64,000 nucleotides of DNA, from the NCBI GenBank assembly GCA_910589415.1, contig OU342634.1, positions 3,038,001 through 3,102,000 of the forward strand, given 5' to 3'. The notes under the pieces were generated by a model that worked only from the letters and a program-made list of their open reading frames with translations, ran no database searches and was not told where the DNA came from. This document shows positions 4,471-64,000 of this stretch, in pieces. The first letter of the stretch is position 1, and each line of letters opens with the position of its first letter. This DNA is from Malachius bipustulatus (lineage: Eukaryota > Arthropoda > Insecta > Coleoptera > Melyridae). A program made the translations under genes and the position numbers.

Positions 4471-6052
4471 CGGGTGTTCTACAAGCTCTATGACAAACTT
4501 TGACAGATGGTAGGTTGCTTGATTTTAAACATATTTTTTTTAATAAACATGGGTCCGATTCGTTTTTGTTTAGAAGTTACAAAAGCATTTAACCTTTATT
4601 AACAATCAACAATAAAAATTTAAATTAAATGATAATCACAAAACTTAAGACTATAAAAATTGTTCGAAATGTCCACCCTCAGCTTGAATGCAAGCCTCAC
4701 ATCGACGAACTAAAGATTCGGTCACTCGAAGAATGAGATTTGGATCATTTCTTATTTGGTTAGCTGCATCTTGAATTCTTTCAAGCAACTGCTGATGGGT
4801 AGCGATTTCAACATGGTAGACCAGCTGCTTCATGTGTCCCCATAAATAAAAATCCAGAGGATTCAGACCGGGAGAACGAGGTGGCCATGATATTGGACCT
4901 CCTTGACCTATCCATTTATTCGGGAAATGTTCCTTTAGCCAAGCAGCAACTTGTCTTCCTCTATGTGGTGGTGCACCGTCATGCTGATACCACATATTTT
5001 GAATAATATTGAGTTGCACGTCATCAATAAACTCTAAAAGGTCGTGTTCTAAGAAATGTCTATAAAGATCTGCATTTAAACGATCATTTAGAACATGCAC
5101 AGGTAATAAATTATTGTTGAAAATGCCACCCCAAACGTTGACACTGAATCGTTGCTGAAATCGTCTTGGTCTAATTGCAAGTGGATTTTGCAACGCCCAT
5201 ACATGTTCATTATGATTATTATTTATGCCATCCCTAGTAAAGCACGCTTCATCAGACCATATGACAAGCGAAATGAATCTATCATTTTGTGCTTGTTGCT
5301 GAAGTAACCAGCGACAAAATCCTAATCGCTGTGGGGCATCTCCAGCATGCAATGCCTGTACATTTTGGCGATGAAACGGGTGTAACATTTCTCTGTTCAA
5401 TACACGCCATACAAAATTCGGTGATACATGAAGGTTACTAGAAATACGCCGAACACTGATTGAAGGGTTATCGAGGACAGCATCTATCACATTTTATTCA
5501 TCTTGTACATTTACTTCAGTAGGGGGAATAGCCTTCTTTGGAGCGGAATTACCTGCTTCTCGAAGTCTACGAAATGATGCACTAAACACCGTGTGGGCAG
5601 GTTGATGTCTATTTGGATACCTGCGTCGGTATTCTTGAGCAGCTTGTCTGGCGTTACCATTGGAATACCCATATACAAACACAATATCTGCATATTCCTC
5701 AGTCGAGAATAAATGCATTTTTTATTTATAACTTTCACACGAAATATCTAATAAATAATTAAAATGACACTAACAATTATTATTGTCATAACAACCGATA
5801 TTTCTATTTATCAGCCTACGTTTTTCATTGAAGTAAGTGTATATTTTATAAGTGTACATTGGTTGACATAGTGTCTTAGTGACATAGCGACTTAGTGTCA
5901 CTTCCTGGTTGACTGAAAAAATTACGATTCTTTAAATGCTTGTAGCTTCTAAACAAAAACGAATCGGACCCATGTTTATTAAAAAAAATATGTTTAAAAT
6001 CAAGCAACCTACCATCTGTCAAAGTTTGTCATAGAGCTTGTAGAACACCCTG
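4471..6052 (-). mobile_element. DD41D mariner-like transposon, nearly intact
   Basis: The ends are inverted repeats of about 120 bases (4471-4591 and 5934-6052), flanked by TA at 4469-4470 and 6053-6054, the target duplication of the IS630/Tc1/mariner superfamily. The right tip reads as CAGGGTGTTCTACAAGC, while the left tip has lost one A (CGGGTGTTC). The transposase lies on the minus strand inside. At 1582 bases it has the size of a full mariner-like element. Confidence 0.9.
4651..5718 (-). pseudogene. DD41D mariner-like transposase with one in-frame stop
   Basis: The frame starting at 5718 encodes an N-terminal helix-turn-helix region (MHLFSTEEYADIVFVYGYS), is stopped by TAA at 5494-5496, and continues in the same frame to 4651. 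Without the stop it would be about 355 residues, matching the 357-residue relative at 21700-22773. Counting from codon 5490 downward, the catalytic aspartates lie in WSDEACF, QHDGAPPH and NPLDFYLWGH. The last two are separated by 41 residues, hence DD41D, a spacing described for the rosa-type mariner lineage. The protein would cut and join transposon ends at TA. The C-terminus HFEQFL matches the relative, showing the 3' end is complete. Apart from the stop the reading frame looks undamaged, so inactivation appears recent. Confidence 0.9.
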
Positions 6053-6981: not shown

Positions 6982-7055
6982 CGTGGCCCAGCGGGGAATC
7001 GAACCCCTGACCTCCTGATTACACGTCAGGTGTGCTTACCACTACACCACCCACG
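6982..7055 (-). tRNA. tRNA-like sequence, anticodon position TGT (Thr)
   Basis: On the minus strand the sequence carries an internal control region like box A (GTGTAGTGGTAAGC) and a clear box B/T-loop (GGGGTTCGATTCCCC). The anticodon arm has a perfect 5-bp stem CCTGA/TCAGG around a seven-base loop with TGT at positions 34-36, which would read threonine ACA. Acceptor ends CGTGG/CCACG pair over five bases. Odd points: position 33 is G rather than the near-universal T, the junction between T-arm and acceptor has extra bases, and no T-run terminator stands right after the 3' end. It may be a decayed tRNA gene or a tRNA-derived element rather than a working gene. Confidence 0.5.
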
Positions 7056-7370
7056 TCACTTACTGTTGCTTTGATCAGATCGGCTATATGAGTTGTTGTT
7101 GTTTCTCTCTCTGTGTGAACGAGGAACGAGTGGTCGCTACAGTTAAAAACACAGTTGGAAACATTCTGGAAAGTAATTCCATCAACCAGAAGTCGCTTCT
7201 GAAGAATGTCTCATTGCGAAATTAATACAAGTTGACTTATCGATTATATTAATTATTCAACGTCAAACGATGCTGTCAAATAATTAATTTTAAACGAACG
7301 TCAAAAATTATTATTTTATATTAGAAATATTATTGTTATTGTTTTGATGCAATTGTGCGTAAAACGTTGT

Positions 7371-20655: not shown

Positions 20656-23411
20656 CAGGGTGTACCAGCTCGATTTAGACAACGGTAAGGGCCGTGTAGG
20701 TCTCGTCAATACGAAACGTTTTTTTATTTGAAGTTTTTGGATTTGGACCTTCGTTGCGGAAATATGGCCGACTTCCGGTTTTTAGTTTTTTGGCTCCAGT
20801 TTCGGCATTTTTAGGTTCTCGCCCAAACTGAAACTAGTTTTGGAAACTCCTTAGCTTCAGTTACAACTTTCATATTGAAGTCAAGGTTCTATCTCTGTTG
20901 GATTCAAAATGGCGACATGCCCAAGACTTTGACATTAAATAGTTTCAAAACTGCACGATAAATTCTTTTTTAAGTAGAAGAATAATTTTATTAATATAAT
21001 GGCCTATAATCTTTGTCTGAAAAGTTTCCTAAAATTCCTTCTCGTTTAGGCGCTATTTGAGGACAACGAAGATCCTTCATTCAGTGTTTGAGCTGAAAAT
21101 TACATCTATTGATATTTTAAAATGACGTTACCTTGGTTATCTACGCTTTAAAGAGTAATTTAATTTTTGCAATGTCAAATTTGACAGTTGTAATTTTATT
21201 CTAAAAAGGTTAAGCACCTGTCAAACAAACTCATTATCATTATTGAAGACTCATGTCGTGTAAGTCGATGAGGCAAGATAAAGGGGACATAATTGCATTA
21301 TGATAAAATTCTTATTAAAAAAATTTATGGATTTCTACCTTGTCGCTGATGTGAGGACGACTTCCTACTGTGTGATTTTTGGATTTAATTGCTCTTGTTT
21401 TTAAAGTTTCATCTGTAGTCCAGACCTTCTTTTTAACTACAGCTTTTATCGCATGAGCAAATGAAAACGAATTCAGGTGGGCTTTGAAAAACATTTTATT
21501 TGAATGTTGACATCAAAATAAATTTTCTTTGATTGAAGGACGATAAAACGGAATAAACATCAGTATTCATACTTGTAAAACATTATAATAACGCAGTAAT
21601 AACAATATGATGACAAAGAAGTGAAATACAAACTAAAACCAATATCAAATTAAACAATAGAGAATCAAAATAAACAAATTAAACAATAGGTAACCTAAGC
21701 TAAAGTAATTGCTCAAAATGTGAGCCGTTTACTTCAAGACATTTCCTACATCTTTTAAGGACATTGTCAGTAGCTTTTTGTAAAACTGTATGCTTTTCTC
21801 TTATTTCATGCGTTGCAGCCACCACTCGAGCTACAAGGTCTTCGTCTGACTGAACAGGTGTTGCGTAAACTAATGACTTAATGTGACCCCAGAAATAAAA
21901 ATCCAAAGGATTTAAATCTGGAGATCTTGCAGGCCAGTTTACGGGTCCACCTCGTCCTATCCATTTATTGGGGAACAGGGTATCTAGGGATCTTCGAACT
22001 TGCCTACTAAAGTGACAAGGCGCTCCATCATGCTGAAACCACATCCTTCTCCTAAGGTCTAAAGGCACATCTTCCAGCAGCTCTGCCAGACGATTTACCA
22101 GGAAGTTACGGTAGATAAATCCGTCCAGTCGGTTCGGAAAAAGAAATGGCCCTATTAGTTGATGGTTTACCATTCCCATCCAAACATTTATTGAGAAACG
22201 CTGTTGGTAGCTCCTTACATGTTTAGAATGAGGATTTTCTTCGACCCATCTGTGAGAGTTACGATTATTAAAAACTCCCTCTCTAGAAAAATTCGCTTCA
22301 TCGCTAAATAAAATGCGAGCGTGAAAATTTGGTTGGAGGCCACCTTTTCTCAGAAGCCATCTACAGAAGTCTACACGAGGCTGATGGTCTTCTGGTAGTA
22401 GCTGTTGAACTCTCTGCAGATGATAAGGAAACAGAAGCTGGTCATGTAAAACGCGCCAGACTGCCATGTTTCCACAGCCCATTGTACTCGCCATCAGAAT
22501 TCTCGTACTCAAGGCTGGGTTGTCTTCGATGCGATTTAGTACTTCTTCCTCAAAATTTGGCGTTCTTCTTCTACGAACATTATTTCCTATATTACCTCGA
22601 TTGAAACTACCAGTTTCAAGCAACCTATTATGCACTCTCAGAAAAGTGCTGTGATGAGGAACTCGTCTATCAGGGAACCTCTCACGGTAGATTCTTTGGG
22701 CTAATCGTCCATTTCGCTTAGCTTCGCCAAAAATTAAATGAATATCTACAAATTCTTGAGTAGTAAAATTCATTTCATCAAGAAAATAAAATCTGAGTTT
22801 GTTTGAAAAGAATTAAATTACAACTGTCAAATTTGACATTGCAATAATTAAATTACTCTTTAAAGCGTAGATAACCAAGGTAACGTAATTGGTAACCAAA
22901 GGTAACCAAGGTAACGTAAGTGGTAACCAAGGTAACCAAGTGCGTCCATTTTTAAATATCAATAGATGTAATTTTCAGGTCAAACACTGAATGATCTTCG
23001 TTTTCCTCAAATGGCGCCTAAACGAGAAGGAATTTTAGGAAACTTTTCAGACAAAGATTATAGGCCATTATATTAATAAAATTATTGTTCTACTTAAAAA
23101 AGAATTTATAGTGCAGTTTTGAAATTATTTAATGTCAAAGTCTTGGGCATGTCGCCATTTTGAATCCAACAGAGATAGAACCTTGACTTCAATATGAAAG
23201 TTGTAACTGAAGCTAAGGAGTTTCCAAAACTAGTTTCAGTTTAGGAGAGAACCTAAAAATGCCGAAACTGGAGCCAAAAAACTAAAAACCGGAAGTCGGC
23301 CATATTTCCGCAACGAAGGTCCAAATCCAAAAAATTCAAATAAAAAAACGTTTCGTCTTGACGAGACCTACAAGGCCCTTACCGTTGTCTAAATCGAGCT
23401 GGTACACCCTG
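20656..23411 (-). mobile_element. DD41D mariner-like transposon, apparently intact
   Basis: TA at 20654-20655 and 23412-23413 flanks a 2756-base element with very long inverted repeats: left arm 20656-21232, right arm 22795-23411. Tips read CAGGGTGTACCAGCTCGATT. The right arm carries an extra 40-odd bases from a short expansion of GGTAACCAAGGTAACGTAA (22870-22940), absent from the left. The only gene is the transposase on the minus strand, starting about 20 bases inside the right arm. About 470 bases after the transposase stop, before the left arm, hold no gene. The open transposase frame and well preserved ends suggest a young, possibly autonomous copy. Confidence 0.92.
21700..22773 (-). CDS. 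DD41D mariner-like transposase
   Basis: An uninterrupted 357-residue frame without introns. Residues 1-60 form an N-terminal helix-turn-helix region (QEFVDIHLIFGEAKRNGRL), 65-125 a second DNA-binding region, and 150-345 the RNase H-fold catalytic domain. Catalytic aspartates are D158 (FSDEANF), D249 (QHDGAPCH) and D291 (NPLDFYFWGH). The 41 residues between the second and third place it in the DD41D group of the IS630/Tc1/mariner superfamily, as described for rosa-like elements. It would bind the terminal repeats, excise the element and insert it at TA, acting in the nucleus. Length and C-terminus (HFEQLL) match the broken relative at 4651-5718, but the two are clearly different lineages. The start Met fits the conserved beginning in both. 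Regulation is not evident apart from the promoter presumably lying in the right inverted repeat. Confidence 0.93.
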   Translation of the reverse strand: MNFTTQEFVDIHLIFGEAKRNGRLAQRIYRERFPDRRVPHHSTFLRVHNRLLETGSFNRGNIGNNVRRRRTPNFEEEVLNRIEDNPALSTRILMASTMGCGNMAVWRVLHDQLLFPYHLQRVQQLLPEDHQPRVDFCRWLLRKGGLQPNFHARILFSDEANFSREGVFNNRNSHRWVEENPHSKHVRSYQQRFSINVWMGMVNHQLIGPFLFPNRLDGFIYRNFLVNRLAELLEDVPLDLRRRMWFQHDGAPCHFSRQVRRSLDTLFPNKWIGRGGPVNWPARSPDLNPLDFYFWGHIKSLVYATPVQSDEDLVARVVAATHEIREKHTVLQKATDNVLKRCRKCLEVNGSHFEQLL

Positions 23412-51296: not shown

Positions 51297-52998
51297 TACA
51301 AGGGTAGTAAGAAATAGAAATATGGGAAGGGCAAGTGGCAACACATGACGCGTTAAAAGGCAGGCCAGGGTATCCACGACAGAATACTTATTAGAAATAT
51401 AAAAATACCTATAGGTACTTTATACTACATTTTTAATGAATAAATGAATAAAAAAATAATAAATAAATAAATAAAATGAATAAATTCATTTTTTCCGTTA
51501 ATATTTTTTTTTAGTCCAGTACACCCCCGTTTTGGCTAGAAATTCTATAGAAGACTTCCTAAAATTATAAAAATTTAAATTTAGGTAGTCCATACCCTCT
51601 ACTTCAAAGTCTCCCCAATTCCGTTGGTTGCTTTTACCGAGGGGGTGAAAACCACGCCATCTCGGGGGCGAAAAATTGGTTGTTAAAAATTACTGTAGAA
51701 ATCAATATATCTACTAATTTTTAGTCATTTTTCTTCTATATACGTTTTTCCCACAGCCAATACTTTTTGAGTTATTTGCGATTAAAATTTCGCGTTTTTA
51801 CCACGTTTTTGAACGGTTTTTCAAGAATATCTCCTAGCTTTATCGCTAATAAGACCATAATAAGTAAACCTCGAAGTAAACAAAATTGTAGCTTGTAGCT
51901 AATAAAAAAACAAAGAGAATGGTTTTGTCTATGGTTGCTCCAAACCTATTATTAACTGAGTAATGGCTTATCAAAAGCCAACTTTTGCTTTTGGAGTAAA
52001 AATCGAAACTTTCAATCTCAAATTATAAAAAAAAATTATGGATTTTTTTATAAAAACTGATATACTTAAAGCTCGACTTAAAGTTTTTGATAGTGCTTAA
52101 AAATACCTTCATTTTTGTTTTTTATTAAAGGTCCTAGCATAAAAACTGACCGAGTTATGACGAAAATAAGATAGACGCCGAGTTTTTTCGTATACCGCCT
52201 ATAGAAAAAACGGTCAAAACAACCCCTTCAAAACCACCCCCCCAATTGAAAATATTAGCCTTTCTACAATTTATTTCCTTAATATAGGTAGGTACCATAA
52301 GTAAATTCTGTGAATTTTAATGATGAACAAGCCTTAATTTTGAAAAGAAAAAATTTAAAGTCAGAAATTTTTTTTTAAATTTCTATAAAAAAGTTCGTTT
52401 TTTCAAAATAAGTCAAAAAATAAGGCAGATATGTAAAAATTACAACATACCAAAAAGTTTTTTTTTCACTGAAAATGTTGATTTAAGGTTTTTTTTTTCG
52501 TAAGTGTAAAATTGAGGGAGATATGGCTCTCAAAAGTTGTGCCTAGTGGTTGACTAGTACTATTTTCGAATCATTCAACCGTTGCCAGTTTCCAGAATAA
52601 GGGTGGAAGAAATATCAATCCTACATGAGTTTGTAGGATTGTATTTTAACATTTATATCTAATAGGGGTGGTTTATGGTAAGGGTTGATGGAGGTTCTAG
52701 CTCACGAAAAATATTAAATAATAACATCAAGTTATCTTCACTGAAATTATTACAACAAAAATTGAAACAATTAAAAGTTTGAATCTTGTTTATAATATTT
52801 TTATCGTAGCAGGGGGTAGTTTTTACCCCTGAAAATATTCAACAATAAACGAAATAGCATTAAATAACATAAAGTAATCTTTACTTAACTTATTTAAACA
52901 AATTCCAAACATTTTAATGCTTTAACGTAATTTTTTAATATTTTTCTATCTATCGGAGGCGGTTTTCACCCCTAAAAATATATGTACCTCGATATGTA

Positions 52999-54549
52999 CA
53001 GTCTTGTCACAGGCATGGTACACCCCCCCCCTTTTTTTTTTCTTTTTTTTTTGAGATAATTTTTTGAAATTTGGTACGTCGCATATTCTCGATAGAGTGC
53101 ACTTTTTAGCAGAAAATTTAATTTTTTCCCACATCCGGTTTTTCCGGAAATGTTACCAACTTTTTATTTTTAAATGGAACACCCTATATATTATTATATT
53201 TTTGGATTCTATACATTTGTACGAATCCAACAATACCACATAAGTACCATTTTAAATGTCAAATTTGTTTTTATTTAATTTTTTATTTCTCAATTATAGT
53301 GTGCCATGACTTCAGTTATGTTCGTCACAGATGCAAAATGGGTACACCAAAATGTCCCTTATTAAGAGTAGGTACTAGCAGATGGTACATCGGTACCAAT
53401 ATATGGTACCATTTGAAAAAAATGAATTCAGCTCAAAAAATCACTCCGGTGCGCATAATTTATCCATAAATCACTTAATTTAGTACTTTGAACAAAATAG
53501 TATACCTATTATTGTGTTGTATACCTAGGCTGTAAAGTGGCACTTTTCAGGCCTCAAGAAGATATGGCCAGGCGAGGCGCAGCCGAGGCTGGCCACTTCT
53601 TGAGGCCTGAAAAGACACTTTACCGCAGTGGTTTACACATAATTTTTTATCCTACACAAAATAATAATAATAATAATAATAATTTTTTTTTTTTTAATTT
53701 TTTTGAAAGAAAATTTATTCAATACCTACATTTATGTTTGCTTAATACATTAGTATCAGTATCAAAGTATCAAAGCGTAGATTAGTTAAATTACAATCAG
53801 TAATTTATTTATTTATGGATAACATTAATAGTGAAGATTTTGAATATTACAAGTATTATTGAACGAAATTCCTTGTTTGGATAAATTTGACATCAGTAAG
53901 TTTAAATCATCAAATCTTCAATAATTAATTTTTAATTTGCTGGGTCTTGCTGATCTATTGACATTGACAGATTGACATACAGCTAGCACAGAATTAGACT
54001 AATCTATTCTGTGCAGCTAGCTTGCTTGCTATTGGTTCCTTCTGGAAATAGCATTTCAATTGCAATTGGGTGGCCCTCTAGCGTGAAAATATAAAAATAA
54101 TTTTACCGCCTAGGCAGGAAAAGTGGCACTTTCTCCGGGGGCATGCAGTCGAGAAAGTTCAATTTTCTTATGGGGTAGGATAAAAATTAGATTTTTCTAG
54201 CAATAGATGATCCAATTGGAGTAAAACGAAATAGTCATGGCACACTATAATTGAGAAATAAGAAATCTAAAAAATTAAATAAAAACACATTTGACATTTA
54301 AAATGGTACTTATGTGGTATTGTTGGATTCGTACAAATGTATAGAATCCAAAAATATAATAATATATAGGGTGTTCCATTTAAAAATAAAAAGTTGGTAA
54401 CATTTCCGGAAAAACCGGATGTGGGAAAAAAATCAATTTTCTGCTAAGAAGTGCGCTCTATCGAGAATATGCGACGTACCAAATTTCAAAAAATTATCTC
54501 AAAAAATAAAGAAAAAAAAGGGGGTGAACCATGCCTGTGACACACACTG
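52999..54549. mobile_element. 1.55 kb inverted-repeat element inside the tandem array
   Basis: TA at 52997-52998 and 54550-54551. Inverted repeats of about 315 bases (52999-53317 and 54236-54549) start CAGTCTTGTCACAGGCATGG / CCATGCCTGTGACAC. Blocks such as TCTCGATAGAG and CATCCGGTTTTTCCGGAAAT are conserved in both arms. About 900 bases of interior hold no gene but contain a strong hairpin (53532-53623) and an (AAT)n run at 53661-53685. Removing it restores one unit of the surrounding array, which confirms insertion. Confidence 0.88.
53532..53623. repeat. Strong two-tier GC-rich hairpin
   Basis: Outer arms 53532-53561 and 53596-53623 (GTAAAGTGGCACTTTTCAGG... / ...GCCTGAAAAGACACTTTAC) and an inner pair TGGCCAG...CTGGCCA with CGAGG/CCGAGG repeats. 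It stands in AT-rich sequence. A related AAAGTGGCACTTT block recurs at 54120. Confidence 0.85.
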
Positions 54550-54843
54550 TATAGTTACTGGCGTTTTTACACTTAATTACATCGAGTGACCTTCACTAAA
54601 CACGTTCATATATATAATTTTAATTAATTATATGGTTTAATCTAGTGTATTATATTTTTTCGCTATAGGGGTAGTTTTCACCCTTAAAAATAATAAGCAA
54701 TCAACGGCGTTGGGGAGACTTTTAAGTTTAGTTTGGCATGCGTTTTGGCTGCCTGGGGTTGCATCCTATGGTGCAAGCCGAACCCACCGTGCAATTTTTA
54801 TTTTATTTTCATAATTTTTCTCACTATTAAGTGACTAAGGTTG

Positions 54844-54930
54844 TGCTGTGTGTTGGCAAGATACATTGTACTGAAGAGTCCCAATTAGGACGAAACACGT
54901 GTCTACAATTTCCACCCCTGACTCACAGCA
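54844..54930 (+). ncRNA. Type I hammerhead ribozyme candidate
   Basis: All parts of a hammerhead are present. Stem I inner strand ATTGTA (54865-54870) pairs fully with TACAAT (54904-54909). The core CTGAAGA (54871-54877) fits CUGANGA, where position 7 is free. Stem II GTCC (54878-54881) pairs with GGAC (54888-54891) across the loop CAATTA. GAA (54892-54894) follows. Stem III is the short AC/GT (54895-54896 with 54901-54902) and loop ACGT. The cleavage site is after C54903, in the classic triplet GTC. Stem I extends past 14-base internal loops through TGCTGTG (54844-54850) and CACAGCA (54924-54930), the layout of natural type I hammerheads. Such ribozymes self-cleave RNA and occur in small repetitive retroelements and Penelope-like elements of animals. 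Function is inferred from base pairing only. Confidence 0.85.
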
Positions 54931-55174
54931 TGAAATCTTTGAAATGAATGGCATGTTTTGCGATATGTCGTTCACCTTTTTGTTTTTTTAAGTTTAGGTC
55001 GAGCACAACCTAAATCCAAATTTTCATGCACATCGGAGGTGTTCTGAAGTTTTTCCAGGTTTCGCCGTTTTTGACCGCTGCTGTACTGGACTAATTTAAG
55101 AATTAAAAAAATCATAAATACTACGTAAATTTTTTAATTAAATTCATCTTCTATTGACGAAACATTTTTTATAC

Positions 55175-57066: not shown

Positions 57067-58054
57067 CAGGGTGCACCATGTATCCTTCTCTATATTGCTA
57101 TCTCCTGAACGCTAAGAGATACAGGGTCGGTTAAATTAGAGAAAAGATGCGCAGTTTTGTGGCCATCTCGAATCCGTCAAAACATGCAAGATATCTGTGA
57201 CCGTTCCTGAAATATCTTGAAAAAACTGAAAAATCGAGATTTCTTATTTTCCTCATATCTTTTTTATTATTGGAAATTAATAAATAATTTTTTGTATGCT
57301 TACATAAGCCGTTAAGAGCTATCCATCTGACGTTTCAAAAATTTTCAAGGCCTACTAGATCCAAGAGTTTTCACAGTCAACTTTCGTTTTTCTTATGGCC
57401 GCCATATTATTTTTTTTATGTCGTTCGATATGAAAAAAATAATGGAAACCAAAAATTAATAAACTTCAAAAAAAAAATAATTTTTATTCTTAATTTTTCA
57501 AAGATAAACCTAATAAAAAATCGTCGAAAAACGTCAACATTTGTAAAATACGCCGAAATAGTGCTTGCCTTATGGTTTTTTAATTTATCTATGAAATTCG
57601 GTCTAAAAAAGTGTCTTTATTGTAAAGAAAAAAGAAGAATAAACATTTTTTGAAGTTTGAACAATTTTTGGTTTTTATGATTTTTTTATACCGAACAACA
57701 TAAAAAAACAATTTGGTGGCCATAAGAAAAACGAAAGTTATTTACTATGAAAATTCTGGGATCTAGTTCAGCTGTGAAAATTTTTTAAATGTCAGATGGG
57801 TAGCTCTTGCCGATTTATGTAAGCCCACAAACAATTATTTATTAATCTCCAATAACAAAAAAGATATGGAAAAAATAAGAAATCTCGATTTTTCAGTTTT
57901 TTCAGGATATTTCAGGAACGGTCACAGATATCTTGTATGTCTCGACGGATTCGAGATGGCCACAAAACTGCGCTCCTTTGGACTTGTTTAACCGACCCTG
58001 TATCTGTTAGCGTTAGGAGATAGCAATATAGAGAAGGATATATGGTGCACCCTG
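57067..58054. mobile_element. 988-base fold-back element (CAGGGTGCACCAT tips)
   Basis: TA at 57065-57066 and 58055-58056 flanks tips CAGGGTGCACCATGTATCCT and ...GGTGCACCCTG. Arms of roughly 430 bases are inverted copies, including GTGGCCATCTCGAATCCGTC, GATATTTCAGGAACGGTCAC and TTATGGCC(A/G)CC. No coding capacity. Confidence 0.88.
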
Positions 58055-58493: not shown

Positions 58494-59980
58494 ACCGGGT
58501 GGGCAACTAAGAATGGACGCCAACCATATCTCAGGAACGGCTCGTCACACAGCTTTAGGGTAAAATTTTTTTGGAGGAAAGTGGCCCCAAAAAATCGCTG
58601 GAAAATATTTTTGAGATTCTAAAACTACCGCTAGATTCAAAACACATGTAGTCTAACCCCCAAATAATTTAGATTTTTTTTTAATTCGAAACTTTTGTCA
58701 TAACCTCAAAAATAAAGTGGTGAGAGTACGTAAAAATTTTGTTTATTCAAAGGTCGATTATTCCGGTTAACCTCAACCGTATTGAACAAGATTAGTCTCG
58801 TTACAAAGCGTTTTCCTTCCTCTGTCGATTACATTTTTCGAATTTTTCATTTTTTTACCACCGCAACCGCTAGAGGGCGTTATTTGTCATGTAAGAAAAT
58901 ATGGCGATTTTTTTTTTTATTAAATAGAATGATATATTTATTTTTACATAGTGGGAAACATCAACTCTACTGGCAGATATCTACAGTTGGGCGAAAGATA
59001 TTCAGCTGCGATTCTTATAACACCTTAAGAATATAATTATCTTTTCCACTATACAGTGTGACCCATTTGTTCTTGAAACACCCTGTAGAATCTTAATTTA
59101 TGGTGCGATTTTAAAGAAATTTCTTTTAAATCATAGAGCTTGATAAACTATATTTTGGGAGCAAAAAGCGTCTCATTCCTACAAAATCCAAGGCCTACTA
59201 GATCAGTGTTTACTTGTAAAGTCTCAAAAATTCATATTAGCGATTTTTTTAGAAAAAAACTGTGCACGCTACTGGATTCTCCAGCCCTCAAAACGGTACT
59301 GTACTAAATTTTATTGGAAATGTCAGAGTAATAAGGATCTTGCAGTTATTTCAGAAATTCATAATAGAACTCCGAATTTTCATTAATTTATTCGAAAAGG
59401 TCAAGAGAGACAAAATAGAAATTGTACGTCTAGTTGGTGATAATGTAGGTACTTTAATTTTTTAATTATAATTTTTTATTTATTAATTTATTTTTTTTAT
59501 ATTTTTTTTTATTTTTTTTACTTTTTTTTATTTTTTTTAATTTTAATTTTTACTTATGATAGCTTTTGACCTTTTTCAAATTAATTTATGAAAATTTGGA
59601 GTATGAAAATTATGGATTTCTAAAATAACTACAAGATTTTTTTACTCTGACATTTTCAATAAAATTTAGTACAGTGCCGTTTTGAGAGCTGGTGAATCCC
59701 GTGGCGTGCCCAGTTTTTTTCTAAAAAAATCGCTAATATGAATTTTTGAGATTTTACAAGTAAACACTGATCTAGTAGGCCTTGGATTTTGTAGGAATGA
59801 GACGCTTTTTGCTCCCAAAATATAGTTTATCAAGCTCAATGATTTAAAAGAAATTTCTTTAAAATCGCACCATAAATTAAGATTCTACAGGGTGTTTCAA
59901 GAACAAATGGGTCACACTGTATGTAAAAATAAATTATGAATGTAGTAAACCACCGTTATTTTAATTATTTGAAAATTAGA
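58494..59980. mobile_element. Disrupted relative of the CCGGGTGGGC element
   Basis: TA at 58492-58493 precedes CCGGGTGGGCAACTAAGAAT, the tip of the element at 6107-6641. GGCTCGTCACACAGCTTTAG and, further in, GATATCTACAGTTGGGCGAA match that copy in order. The inserted element 59054-59919 breaks it, and TGTAAAAATAAATTATG after 59921 continues the interrupted sequence. The right tip is not seen. Confidence 0.65.
59054..59919. mobile_element. 866-base fold-back element (CAGTGTGACCC tips)
   Basis: TA at 59052-59053 and 59920-59921. Inverted arms of about 310-320 bases begin CAGTGTGACCCATTTGTTCT and contain a second tip-like CACCCTGTA shortly inside. Blocks AAAGCGTCTCATTCCTACAA and CAAGGCCTACTAGATCAGTG are conserved in both arms. 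The middle is T-rich low complexity (59460-59560). Non-coding. Confidence 0.88.
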
Positions 59981-60967: not shown

Positions 60968-61074
60968 ACACCCCAAGACGTACGCTTCACCCTAATTTTG
61001 AGTTCTTTTGTTGATTAATAATAATAAAAGTAACAGTTTATTCGTTTTTTTAAACTAAAGTGCAGTGACAAATA

Positions 61075-63273
61075 ATGGGGCGATCAGGCAAAAGGGGCCA
61101 CCGCTCGCAATCTCAGCACTCCCATCGATCAAGGAGCAGGCACTCCCGTAGCCCGAGAACAGTAAGGGATGATGATACAAGTAGTACGATAAGTGAGTTA
61201 AAAAGGGAATTGGCGGCGTTGCAGCAAATTGTAAGTACCCATTCGAGTACTAATACGCATTTAGATGAAACGGTAATACCCGCATTCGAACCTGGCATGG
61301 AAAGTTCCCAAAGTGCAACCGACTGGGTTCGCAAAATAGACGAACTAGCCATTTTGCATAGATGGTCAGACGAAACTGTATTTAAGTTAGCCACAAATCG
61401 ACTACGAGGTAATGCACGTAAATGGTATGACTCACTACCAAATCTTGGCTTAAATTGGCTGGACATGAAACAACAACTTATTCAGAACTTTCCGACGCCG
61501 ATTCGATTTGGTAAATTACTGGTTGAGGCTGCAAACTATAACCCTGTTCCTGGTCAAAACTTGGGCGACTATTGTTATGAAAAGGCAGCAAAATTAAATC
61601 GTTTAAATTTGGCAATTCCCGAAGAATGTATTATTGATAGTGTAATTGAAGGGATTAATGATAACAAAATTGCTTTACCCGCAAGGGCGGCAAATTTTCA
61701 AACAATTGGTAATCTAGCAAATTATCTCAGTAATGTGTCGTCAACGAAATACCTACCTTCCACTTCAAATCCGAAATCAAATTTCAATGTTCCTGGCTAT
61801 CTAAATAATGCTCGATCCCAAAGTAAATTTTCAAAACGAAGTTTCAAACCTGGAGACTCTCGTCCTACGAATGTGTCCAAGAAAATATCCTGTTTCAATT
61901 GTGGTGGAGATCATCGAGTACGGGATTGTCAGAAGCCAAGGGTTGAATGTAAGGGATGCAACCGATTAGGGCATACTCAAGAATTTTGTACTAATAAATT
62001 TGGTTACAAAACGAAACGTGTAAATGAAATCCAAGATAGTACCGGTACAATAATAAATATTTTTGTTAAAACTGCTCAAATAAATAATTTCAAGATAAAA
62101 TGTTTGCTGGATAGCGGTAGCGACTGTACGATAATCAAGCGATCGACGGCATTCAATGCTAGAGTTTCAATTCAAGAAAATAAGCCTATTTCTCTTAAAT
62201 GTTTCATGGGTAATATGACAGTGAGTAACCAAAAATGCGATCTGAAAATAATAATCGAAGAAGCGGTTGTTAATGTTATTGCTATCGTCCTTGATGATAA
62301 ATACTTGAGTCATGATCTTATAATCGGACGTGATTTTCTCTGCAATGAAAACGTAGTAATTACAAAAACTAAAGATATTAAGCTAATATTAAGGAATTTA
62401 CCTTCTCTCGATATAAATAAAATTGAAGTTATTGAAGAAAATTATAATAACAATAATTCTGTTTTTGATCTCAATTCGATTAATTTTGACAAGGATCTCT
62501 CACCCGACCAGAAAACGATAACATTTAATTTACTTCAGCAATACCGAGATTGCCTTGCATTTTCAATAAGTGAATTAGGAAAAACTGATAGCATTGAAAT
62601 GCATATTAAATGCACTAGTGAAGAACCTGTTGTTTATAGACCGTACCGAATGGCCGTACAAGAAAAAGCGATATTGTCGAAAATTATTGACGAGCTTTTA
62701 CAAAATAACATTATTAGGGAATCCAGCTCCCCTTATGCTAGTCCCATTCTCCTAGTGAAGAAGAAAACAAATGACTACAGGATGTGCGTTGACTACCGAA
62801 AATTAAACGCGATCACAGTTAAGGATAAATATCCACTCCCTTTAATCGATGAACAAATTGACAAGTTAGGAGGCAATAATCAATTTTATATTACGTTAGA
62901 TTTAGCCTCGGGTTTTTATCAAGTCCCTATGGCACCAGATTCTGTTGAGAAAACGGCATTCGTGACACCGGAATCACATTATGAATTTCTAAGAATGCCT
63001 TTCGGCCTGACTAATTCACCAAGTATTTTTCAAAAACTTATAAACAACGTTCTAGGAAAACTGAAAAATAACATAGCTTTTCCCTACATTGATGACATAA
63101 TCATTCCATGTGAATCAGTTGACGAAGGACTATCACGACTCGAAACCGTCCTTAACAAATTGCGTGAACATAAGCTAACTCTGAAATTAAGCAAATGTGC
63201 ATTTTTCAAAAAGCAAATTGATTACTTGGGAAGAAAAGTCCTGGAACGCAAATGTCCCATGTGGATGCTCTAA
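61075..63273 (+). pseudogene. Gag-protease-RT polyprotein, truncated by deletion
   Basis: A 732-residue open frame. Residues 1-35 are Arg/Ser rich, 41-54 a short coiled segment, and 70-225 the Gag core (WVRKIDELAILHRWSDE, RGNARKWYDSLP). Zinc knuckles lie at 273-285 (C-x2-C-x3-H-x4-C, one residue short) and 292-305 (canonical C-x2-C-x4-H-x4-C). The aspartic protease has LLDSGSDCTII at 344-354 and LIIGRDFL at 415-422. The reverse transcriptase spans about 515-720, with YRMCVDYRKLNAIT (568-581), TLDLASGFYQVPM (607-619), MPFGLTNSPS and the catalytic YIDD (671-674). It ends at DYLGRKV, after which the frame is foreign: the sequence jumps to the end of RNase H in another phase. Gag-pol are fused in one frame, without a shift site. 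Gag packages the RNA; RT copies it in cytoplasmic particles. Confidence 0.9.
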
Positions 63274-64000
63274 GCAGGGAGCTGGTGGTTGATGTTCTAC
63301 AAGTAGACATAACAGAAGGCGAGTGGTTGCATGCTGTTCAGTTGCAAGATGAACAAGTTGTCATGATACTAAATATTTTGAAAGATGATGTCAGAAATAA
63401 TGAGACCAAACAGTACTTTGAAAAATATTGTTTGAAAAAGGGAATCGTCTATCGAAGACTCGAGAATAATAAAACTGCTTGGTTAGTACCTCGTAACGTT
63501 CGATGGCAGATTTGTAGACTTTGTCACGACAATATGGGACATTTTGGTCTAGAGAAAACCTTGAGAAAAATTGAGGAAAACTACTGGTTTACAGGAATGA
63601 GAAAATTTGTCAAGAAGTATGTATCTTCATGTTTGAACTGCCAATATTACAAACCTCGTCCTGGAAAGAAACAAGGGTCGTTACACCCTATAGAAAAGGT
63701 AGCTACGCCTTTCTATATGTTACACATGGATCACGTAGGACCTTTTGTGACTAGCCGAAGGGTAATAAATATTTACTGGTCATCGTTGATGCGTTCACAA
63801 AATATGTGATAATCGAAGCAGTAAAAAGTACGAAAACACGATATGTAACAAAAACGTTGCTCGACATGTTTTATTTATTTGGAGTAGCAAAAAGGGCAGT
63901 GACTGATAGAGGTACAGCATTTACGTCACAAACTTTTGAGACCTTCTGTAAGACTTACGGTATAAAGCATACGTTGAATGCTGTAGCAACTCCCCGTGCC
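63252..64000 (+). pseudogene. Integrase region, frameshifted and cut by the window edge
   Basis: Frame 63252-63809 begins with the last residues of RNase H (SHVDALSRE, the usual VDALSR end) and continues into integrase: zinc-binding H-x4-H-x29-C-x2-C (CHDNMGHFG ... SCLNCQ; residues 92, 97, 127, 130), then LHMDHVGPF with the first catalytic Asp (residue 160). At about 63760 the frame shifts; from 63764 to the edge another phase reads YLLVIVDAFTKYV and AKRAVTDRGTAF with the second Asp. The Glu of the DDE triad lies beyond 64000. The protein would insert the cDNA into the chromosome. Deletion and frameshift make this copy inactive. Confidence 0.88.

Follow-up and report, generated by a model that had tools for sequence, protein, structure and literature searches.

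A hammerhead ribozyme in a 254-bp insertion of Malachius bipustulatus, and Penelope-like insertion scars among its relatives

The hammerhead and the insertion that carries it

The window analysed here, by which we mean the whole 64,000-nucleotide stretch of contig OU342634.1 (positions 3,038,001 to 3,102,000, forward strand) from the beetle Malachius bipustulatus, contains a type I hammerhead ribozyme motif within a short insertion flanked by a target-site duplication. Elsewhere the window holds two minus-strand open frames of 280 and 370 aa (4651-5493 and 21700-22812), both with DDE_3 matches slightly under the Pfam cut-off and the longer also with a DUF4817 match, which are likely mariner-like transposases; a plus-strand Gypsy-like polyprotein (61069-63809), whose protease and reverse transcriptase share a 734-aa frame, with a second, overlapping frame after it; and three long inverted repeat pairs that look like foldback or terminal-inverted-repeat elements (53029-53285 with 54268-54524, 97% complementary; 57108-57347 with 57775-58014, 89%; 59051-59334 with 59639-59922, 96%). 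ARAGORN called a tRNA-Thr (anticodon TGT) at 6983-7057 on the minus strand, which scored 35.9 bits with the Rfam tRNA model; since its acceptor arm is degraded, this is possibly a tRNA-derived repeat.

An Rfam covariance search of the window matched 54865-54909 to Hammerhead_1 (RF00163) over model positions 1-45 of 45, with the full core present and all core residues intact in the alignment, at 53.5 bits against a gathering score of 34 (E 4e-11, which rules out a chance hairpin). The first-pass annotation, made from the sequence alone, had proposed a complete type I hammerhead here; the covariance score lies above the Rfam cut-off for that class, and the coordinates it gave for stems, loops, core and cleavage triplet all agree with our re-reading of the sequence. 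No further hammerhead was found in the window up to E 1, in a scan that does not display overlapping lower matches of the same clan. The parts of the motif are as follows.

54865-54909, plus strand: type I hammerhead core, comprising inner stem I, stem II and stem III (RF00163)
54865-54870 and 54904-54909, plus strand: inner stem I, AUUGUA with UACAAU (read from the sequence)
54871-54877, plus strand: core CUGAAGA (read from the sequence)
54878-54881 and 54888-54891, plus strand: stem II, GUCC/GGAC (read from the sequence)
54892-54894, plus strand: GAA (read from the sequence)
54895-54896 and 54901-54902, plus strand: stem III, AC/GU, with loop ACGU (read from the sequence)
54903/54904, plus strand: predicted cut, 3' of C54903 in the GUC triplet (placed by the Rfam alignment)
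54851-54864 and 54910-54923, plus strand: symmetric 14-base loops in stem I (read from the sequence)
54841-54850, plus strand: outer stem I, 5' strand, pairing with 54924-54933
54924-54933, plus strand: outer stem I, 3' strand, pairing with 54841-54850

The outer part of stem I consists of seven Watson-Crick pairs (54844-54850 with 54924-54930), then two wobbles and one further pair, and is also present in the minimum-energy fold of the region. RNA of the insertion is predicted to be cut by its own type I hammerhead.

The element around the ribozyme, its boundaries and its target are as follows.

54732-54985, plus strand: retrozyme insertion of 254 bp, a 5'-truncated monomer, matching the 320-bp tandem unit at 78% identity across unit positions 65-320 and bounded by the target duplication
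54720-54731, plus strand: left copy of the 12-bp target-site duplication TTTTAAGTTTAG, an exact direct repeat adjoining the insertion
54986-54997, plus strand: right copy of the same duplication, TTTTAAGTTTAG, likewise exact and adjoining
54974-54985, plus strand: site b, where the insertion stops on its 3' side, ACCTTTTTGTTT (CATCTTTTGTCT in the family), a putative reverse transcription start, scored as right end b in the end table
54794-54810, plus strand: T-rich tract equivalent to site a, the second putative reverse transcription start, internal and unused in this copy (unit-relative position by eye, from site a ends in relatives)
51567-51633, minus strand: empty site, a paralogous copy of the target repeat without the insert, to which the joined flanks align across the insertion point

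When the two flanks were joined and one copy of the duplication kept, they aligned to the empty site with 52 of 67 positions identical and no gaps. The ribozyme does lie inside a repeat, as had been proposed, but two repeats are nested here, the retrozyme insertion having landed in an older dispersed one. The insertion spans unit positions 65-320 together with a few bases of the next unit's start; because unit positions 6-64 and a second hammerhead are absent, this copy is not expected to yield a monomer unaided and is probably a dead end. No open frame of at least 120 aa overlaps the insertion, nor does any lie between 48700 and 57288, and in the absence of a frame combining reverse transcriptase and GIY-YIG domains the retrozyme is not itself a Penelope-like element (PLE). 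The GC content is 41% for the insert and 45% for the 320-bp unit. Relative to mononucleotide shuffles, the fold of the insert has a z of -1.9, and the 320-nt unit folded as a circle (-88.9 kcal/mol) a z of -3.1.

Copies, paired ends and target duplications of the family

The 544-Mb assembly (52 contigs) was searched for relatives. All 74 hammerhead candidates that were scored lay above the Rfam cut-off, the window copy not being among them; since these 74 were scored out of 73,468 first-look candidates, the number is a minimum, and good hammerheads are over-represented in the set. We took 66 loci around hammerhead places, skipping 10 that overlapped others. The relatives form arrays of ~320-bp units, including one array with at least four identical 320-bp units in a row, and many loci are single-copy. 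As to the earlier suggestion that such ribozymes work best in tandem RNAs, the relatives stand in tandem and the window copy does not. Together with one other locus (L001), the window copy belongs to a diverged group; the two match at 87% identity across the window unit, and either one matches the 320-bp unit at 78%. Copies with a CUGAUGA core are still more diverged.

The hammerhead alignment comprises 44 rows out of 58 distinct ones; of the 14 set aside, most are interrupted by a junction or an insertion (two of them, L030:1473 and L034:2745, were intact). Pairing is kept in 92.4% of cells. Compensatory changes in stems I and II, which the first-pass annotation had named as a check, found no support: two pairs changed on both sides, and 220 of 500 shuffles reached as high a value, the 44 copies being too alike to inform. 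Several stem changes among them are uncompensated, and several copies have decayed stems.

Target duplications were assessed in 54 loci, namely the 57 distinct loci including the window less L053 and L066, which run off the end of their stretch, and L065, a fragment. Flanks share at least 12 nt in 31 of the 54, against 6 of 2,862 mismatched flank pairs, and at least 9 nt in 36 of the 54, against 115 of the mismatched pairs. Where 10 nt or more are shared, the length is 12-13 nt in 26 of 32 loci; these lengths include microhomology with the element ends, and the true ones may be 1-3 nt shorter. The duplications are 80% AT, compared with 65% for the 20 bases to their right and 65% for the window.

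At these junctions the element ends at two recurrent positions, site b (...CATCTTTTGTCT) and site a (...TTTTTATTTCATT, at unit ~152-156), which are 170 nt apart in the retrozyme and enclose the hammerhead. Ends were tabulated by script for 35 of the 54 loci, mainly those with a placeable duplication; the 19 left out include L033, despite its 12-nt repeat, and the 9-nt match at L058 is element sequence. The table holds 18 a/b, one a/a, one a/other and no b/b insertions, 11 with a single b end, three with a single a end and one other. An old, diverged copy (L060) was read by eye as a nineteenth a/b, so that in nearly all head-to-head insertions (19 of 21 two-armed ones) one arm ends at a and its partner at b; the count is 14 of 16 if L014, L034, L035, L042 and L059, where the site-a arm is short or low in complexity, are set aside. 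Because loci were found by their hammerhead, the sample consists of insertions that contain one.

The base following the terminal TGTCT is A in 29 of the 35 loci that carry TGTCT, so that homology at site b amounts to about one base in most loci; at site a, no target homology was seen when target 3' ends were compared by eye with the adjacent RNA. As insertion scars, the family shows two fixed putative reverse transcription starts, one per strand, that are not homologous to the target (19 of 21 a/b; target ends by eye).

The copies also bear on the form of their template. Across 43 loci (100 segments of at least 94% identity, with the T-rich positions 120-159 excluded), segments differ by 0.78% within a locus against 2.30% between loci, and none of 2,000 permutations gave so low a value. 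Opposite arms differ by 0.78% (31 pairs), and in L010, L021, L025 and L030 both arms have rare variants in common that occur in at most 5% of other segments. In some loci the arms are unlike; at L024 they differ at 9 of 119 positions, which may reflect the use of two RNAs. By eye, the second (site a) arm crosses the cleavage position, unit 247/248, in seven of 21 insertions (L010, L012, L025, L030, L032, L045 and L050), which implies an RNA joined at that position, as a circle or as an uncut multimer; first arms were left out of this count because locus discovery requires a hammerhead in them. In a list of arm starts compiled by hand, only one of 57 arm 5' ends falls within 3 nt of the cleavage position, which rules out the cut linear monomer as the usual template. 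Nine of the 57, the window copy included, lie in the T-run at unit 59-67 (a 9-nt window was as full in 25 of 5,000 random draws), a clustering that junction microhomology, a reverse transcriptase stop or a transcript start could explain, and 11 lie in the T-rich stretch at unit 120-150.

Penelope-like elements of the same genome

A family search of the genome gave 775 GIY-YIG candidates, of which 150 were scored, all above the cut-off. Many of these matches fall within open frames 823-855 aa long, which stand in tandem or in head-to-head order, and RVT_1 and GIY-YIG occur together in one open frame. Relatives of one Penelope protein of this genome come from the beetles Coccinella, Harmonia, Diabrotica and Callosobruchus (those with an organism given among the 120 matches listed), and precomputed annotations of relatives include PF26215. 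On contig C11, ~3-83 of its 84 kb appear to form a tandem array of ~3.33-kb Penelope-like units with a strand switch near 20-26 kb, in which most GIY-YIG matches lie in 833-aa open frames; one unit (L067) was read. In the pseudo-LTR of that unit, on the minus strand, CCCCAAACGAAAACACGTGC resembles by eye part of the retrozyme hammerhead core, without stem II and CUGANGA, and may be chance or a relic.

Head-to-head PLE insertions were read by eye for their ends. One arm is tailed and the other untailed in 12 of 14 readable cases, the exceptions being L071 and L074; five further pairs stand outside the count (L068/L069, L072/L087, L079/L080, L100/L101 and L102/L103). These end counts, like those of PLE duplications below, are raw tallies without a shuffled control, and the family letters are our own.

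Family A, one tailed and one untailed arm: L073; L098/L099 (by eye)
Family C, one tailed and one untailed arm: L085/L086; L090/L091; L092/L093 (by eye)
Family D, one tailed and one untailed arm: L075/L076; L088/L089; L094/L095; L096/L097 (by eye)
Family F, one tailed and one untailed arm: L077/L078 (by eye)
Family G, one tailed and one untailed arm: L081/L082 (by eye)
Family H, one tailed and one untailed arm: L083/L084 (by eye)

Read in this way, the scars of the retrozyme family follow the rule of the Penelope elements, save for their 170-nt spacing around the hammerhead: PLE tails are ~31-41 nt long, and the PLE start sites ~31-41 nt apart. In family C, all three insertions have 13-nt shared stretches; in most of the others the duplication length is unreadable because they sit in (TA)n. 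Most PLE insertions that were read lie in such repeats, whereas by eye the retrozymes do not, which, like the difference in spacing and the two exceptions, counts against a Penelope link.

The retrozyme unit has no significant similarity to the PLE pieces L067-L089 (best E 0.012, T-rich; L090-L103 lay outside the comparison), and no hammerhead was found in 23 of the 37 PLE pieces fetched (Rfam on 8 + 15 pieces, and a loose scan). Rfam matches of miRNA and sRNA families in these pieces were below cut-offs and were taken for chance, falling in palindrome centres and AT repeats. Neither similarity nor a hammerhead marks out a partner family among the pieces compared, which cover part of the PLE families. 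The motif TTTCATT occurs, by eye, both at the untailed start of PLE family C (L085/L086 and L090-L093) and at retrozyme site a; being short and AT-rich, it is only a lead to the partner.

Origin of the insertions

The kind of element found here has already been described, and the Penelope-type scars are the part worth following. Metazoan non-LTR retrozymes were defined by Cervera and de la Pena (2020; PMC7229834), and the available text of that paper and our data have in common a canonical type I hammerhead with a two-pair stem III under a tetraloop, a short repeat of less than 50% GC (170-400 bp there; a 320-bp unit and the 254-bp window copy here), tandem copies (in the family, though not in the window, which holds a truncated monomer) and target duplications of more than 4 bp. 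A fixed end pair, head-to-head arms or a duplication length beyond 'larger than 4 bp' do not appear in that text, and all three are measured here. How the retrozyme family inserts is thus, at the level of sequence, what is new: paired ends, head-to-head arms and a measured duplication length. We found no earlier description of paired fixed ends in retrozymes in the literature searched, which took in few subscription papers. Plant LTR retrozymes, with a type III hammerhead, LTRs and a 4-bp duplication, do not match the type I ribozyme and 12-bp duplication seen here. The pDo500 satellite of Dolichopoda crickets (PMC2837043) is, by its description in the portion available, likewise an insect tandem repeat with a hammerhead.

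In PMC7229834, a stem III of two pairs under a tetraloop is said to resemble invertebrate hammerheads, PLE hammerheads are described as minimal, and Penelope elements are put forward as a strong candidate mobiliser on the grounds of shared type I hammerheads, tandem copies and co-occurrence; PMC7761336 reports, in the part available, retrozyme repeats without a conserved motif pointing to an autonomous partner. The hammerheads of PLEs and Terminons share the type I topology and the retroelement association, but are described in the passages available (PMC7229834, PMC7761336) without helix III or loop-loop contact, whereas in the window's hammerhead stem III is present and stem I is extended. 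The first-pass annotation had linked the short stem III to Penelope-like elements and retrozymes; that stem has the invertebrate-like form (PMC7229834, in the part available), the 23 PLE pieces scanned carry no detectable hammerhead, and the annotation's interpretation is, as a whole, partly supported.

The behaviour of GIY-YIG PLEs offers a close comparison for the scars. According to the available text of PMC11167929, one Penelope protein can in vitro cut and extend both strands, starting from two internal RNA sites that are not homologous to the AT-rich target, which accounts for the tail of PLE arms; the 12 of 14 PLE insertions with one tailed and one untailed arm agree with these two starts. 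In that study the start site was no different for the top strand than for the bottom one, and the strict one-of-each pairing found here therefore goes beyond its results. PMC3846280, as far as available, describes head-to-head copies in which one inverted end may bear a tail and, in the rotifer, duplications of 8-10 bp, compared with the 13-nt stretches of family C. The retrozyme shares with these elements (PMC3846280, PMC11167929, the parts available) the head-to-head copies, two reverse transcription starts (tailed and untailed arms in PLEs), AT-rich targets and tandem partial copies. Unlike them, it is non-coding, has its sites 170 nt apart around a hammerhead and has no significant sequence in common with the PLE pieces compared.

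We consider it probable that the window holds a 254-bp, 5'-truncated, non-autonomous insertion of a metazoan-type retrozyme with a hammerhead predicted to cleave the element's RNA, and that Penelope-like enzymes, starting at two fixed internal sites, are likely what copies the family. That the copying was instead done by a LINE through target-primed reverse transcription, with the arms arising by twin priming and site a being fixed since an A/U-rich tract anneals easily, seems unlikely to us. Target duplications and 5' truncation are LINE hallmarks too, and LINE-like reverse transcriptase fragments can be seen by eye in the window (e.g. 1364-1819); but the duplication length is tight (12-13 in 26 of 32), the target 3' ends at site a do not, by eye, match the adjoining RNA, a/b dominates and b/b is absent among 35 loci, and PLEs of the same genome show a like end rule.

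The remaining readings fare worse. It is quite improbable that the window copy acts locally, for instance by cutting a host transcript running through it: its core residues are all intact, but it sits in a dispersed repeat with no frame of at least 120 aa between 48700 and 57288, and several other copies have decayed stems. An ordinary satellite that carries a hammerhead and spreads as DNA, through recombination or excised circles, would account for ~320-bp tandem units that are alike within a locus; truncated single copies with target duplications, fixed and unequal ends and an empty site disfavour this very improbable reading and point to insertion by a reverse transcriptase or a transposase. 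A DNA transposon or foldback element, with the arms as its inverted terminal repeats, would fit the inverted arms seen at many loci. Yet the two arms have unlike outer ends, one at site a and one at site b, the inner ends vary so that the head-to-head junctions are variable, and 15 of 35 insertions have a single arm (by script); together with the duplications and the empty site, these features leave such an origin exceedingly improbable.

Copying of the retrozyme by Penelope-like enzymes could proceed in a few steps. Transcripts of tandem copies would be cut by the hammerhead and closed into circles, or else persist as multimers that were never cut. At an AT-rich target, the two strands would be cut ~12 bp apart by a GIY-YIG Penelope protein, which may act as a dimer. 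Extension around the RNA would begin at site b for one strand and at site a for the other, before the two cDNAs are joined to each other in head-to-head orientation. From the insertion scars of the relatives, it is likely that enzymes of the Penelope type spread the family. With somewhat less assurance, we lean towards a general view in which animal retrozymes are parasites of PLEs, their circular or multimeric RNA being read by the Penelope enzyme from two fixed starts that bracket the hammerhead, one for each cut strand, so that a two-armed insertion would be the record of paired rolling reverse transcription.

The mobiliser of animal retrozymes was left open in PMC7229834 and PMC7761336, so far as the available text of each goes, and the scars, as indirect evidence, now point to Penelope-type copying by a checkable rule, which also supplies two RNA positions where the enzyme should start. 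If this is true, the dozens of scars that can be read in this genome, beside its many open Penelope frames, would make the mobilisation of retrozymes directly testable.
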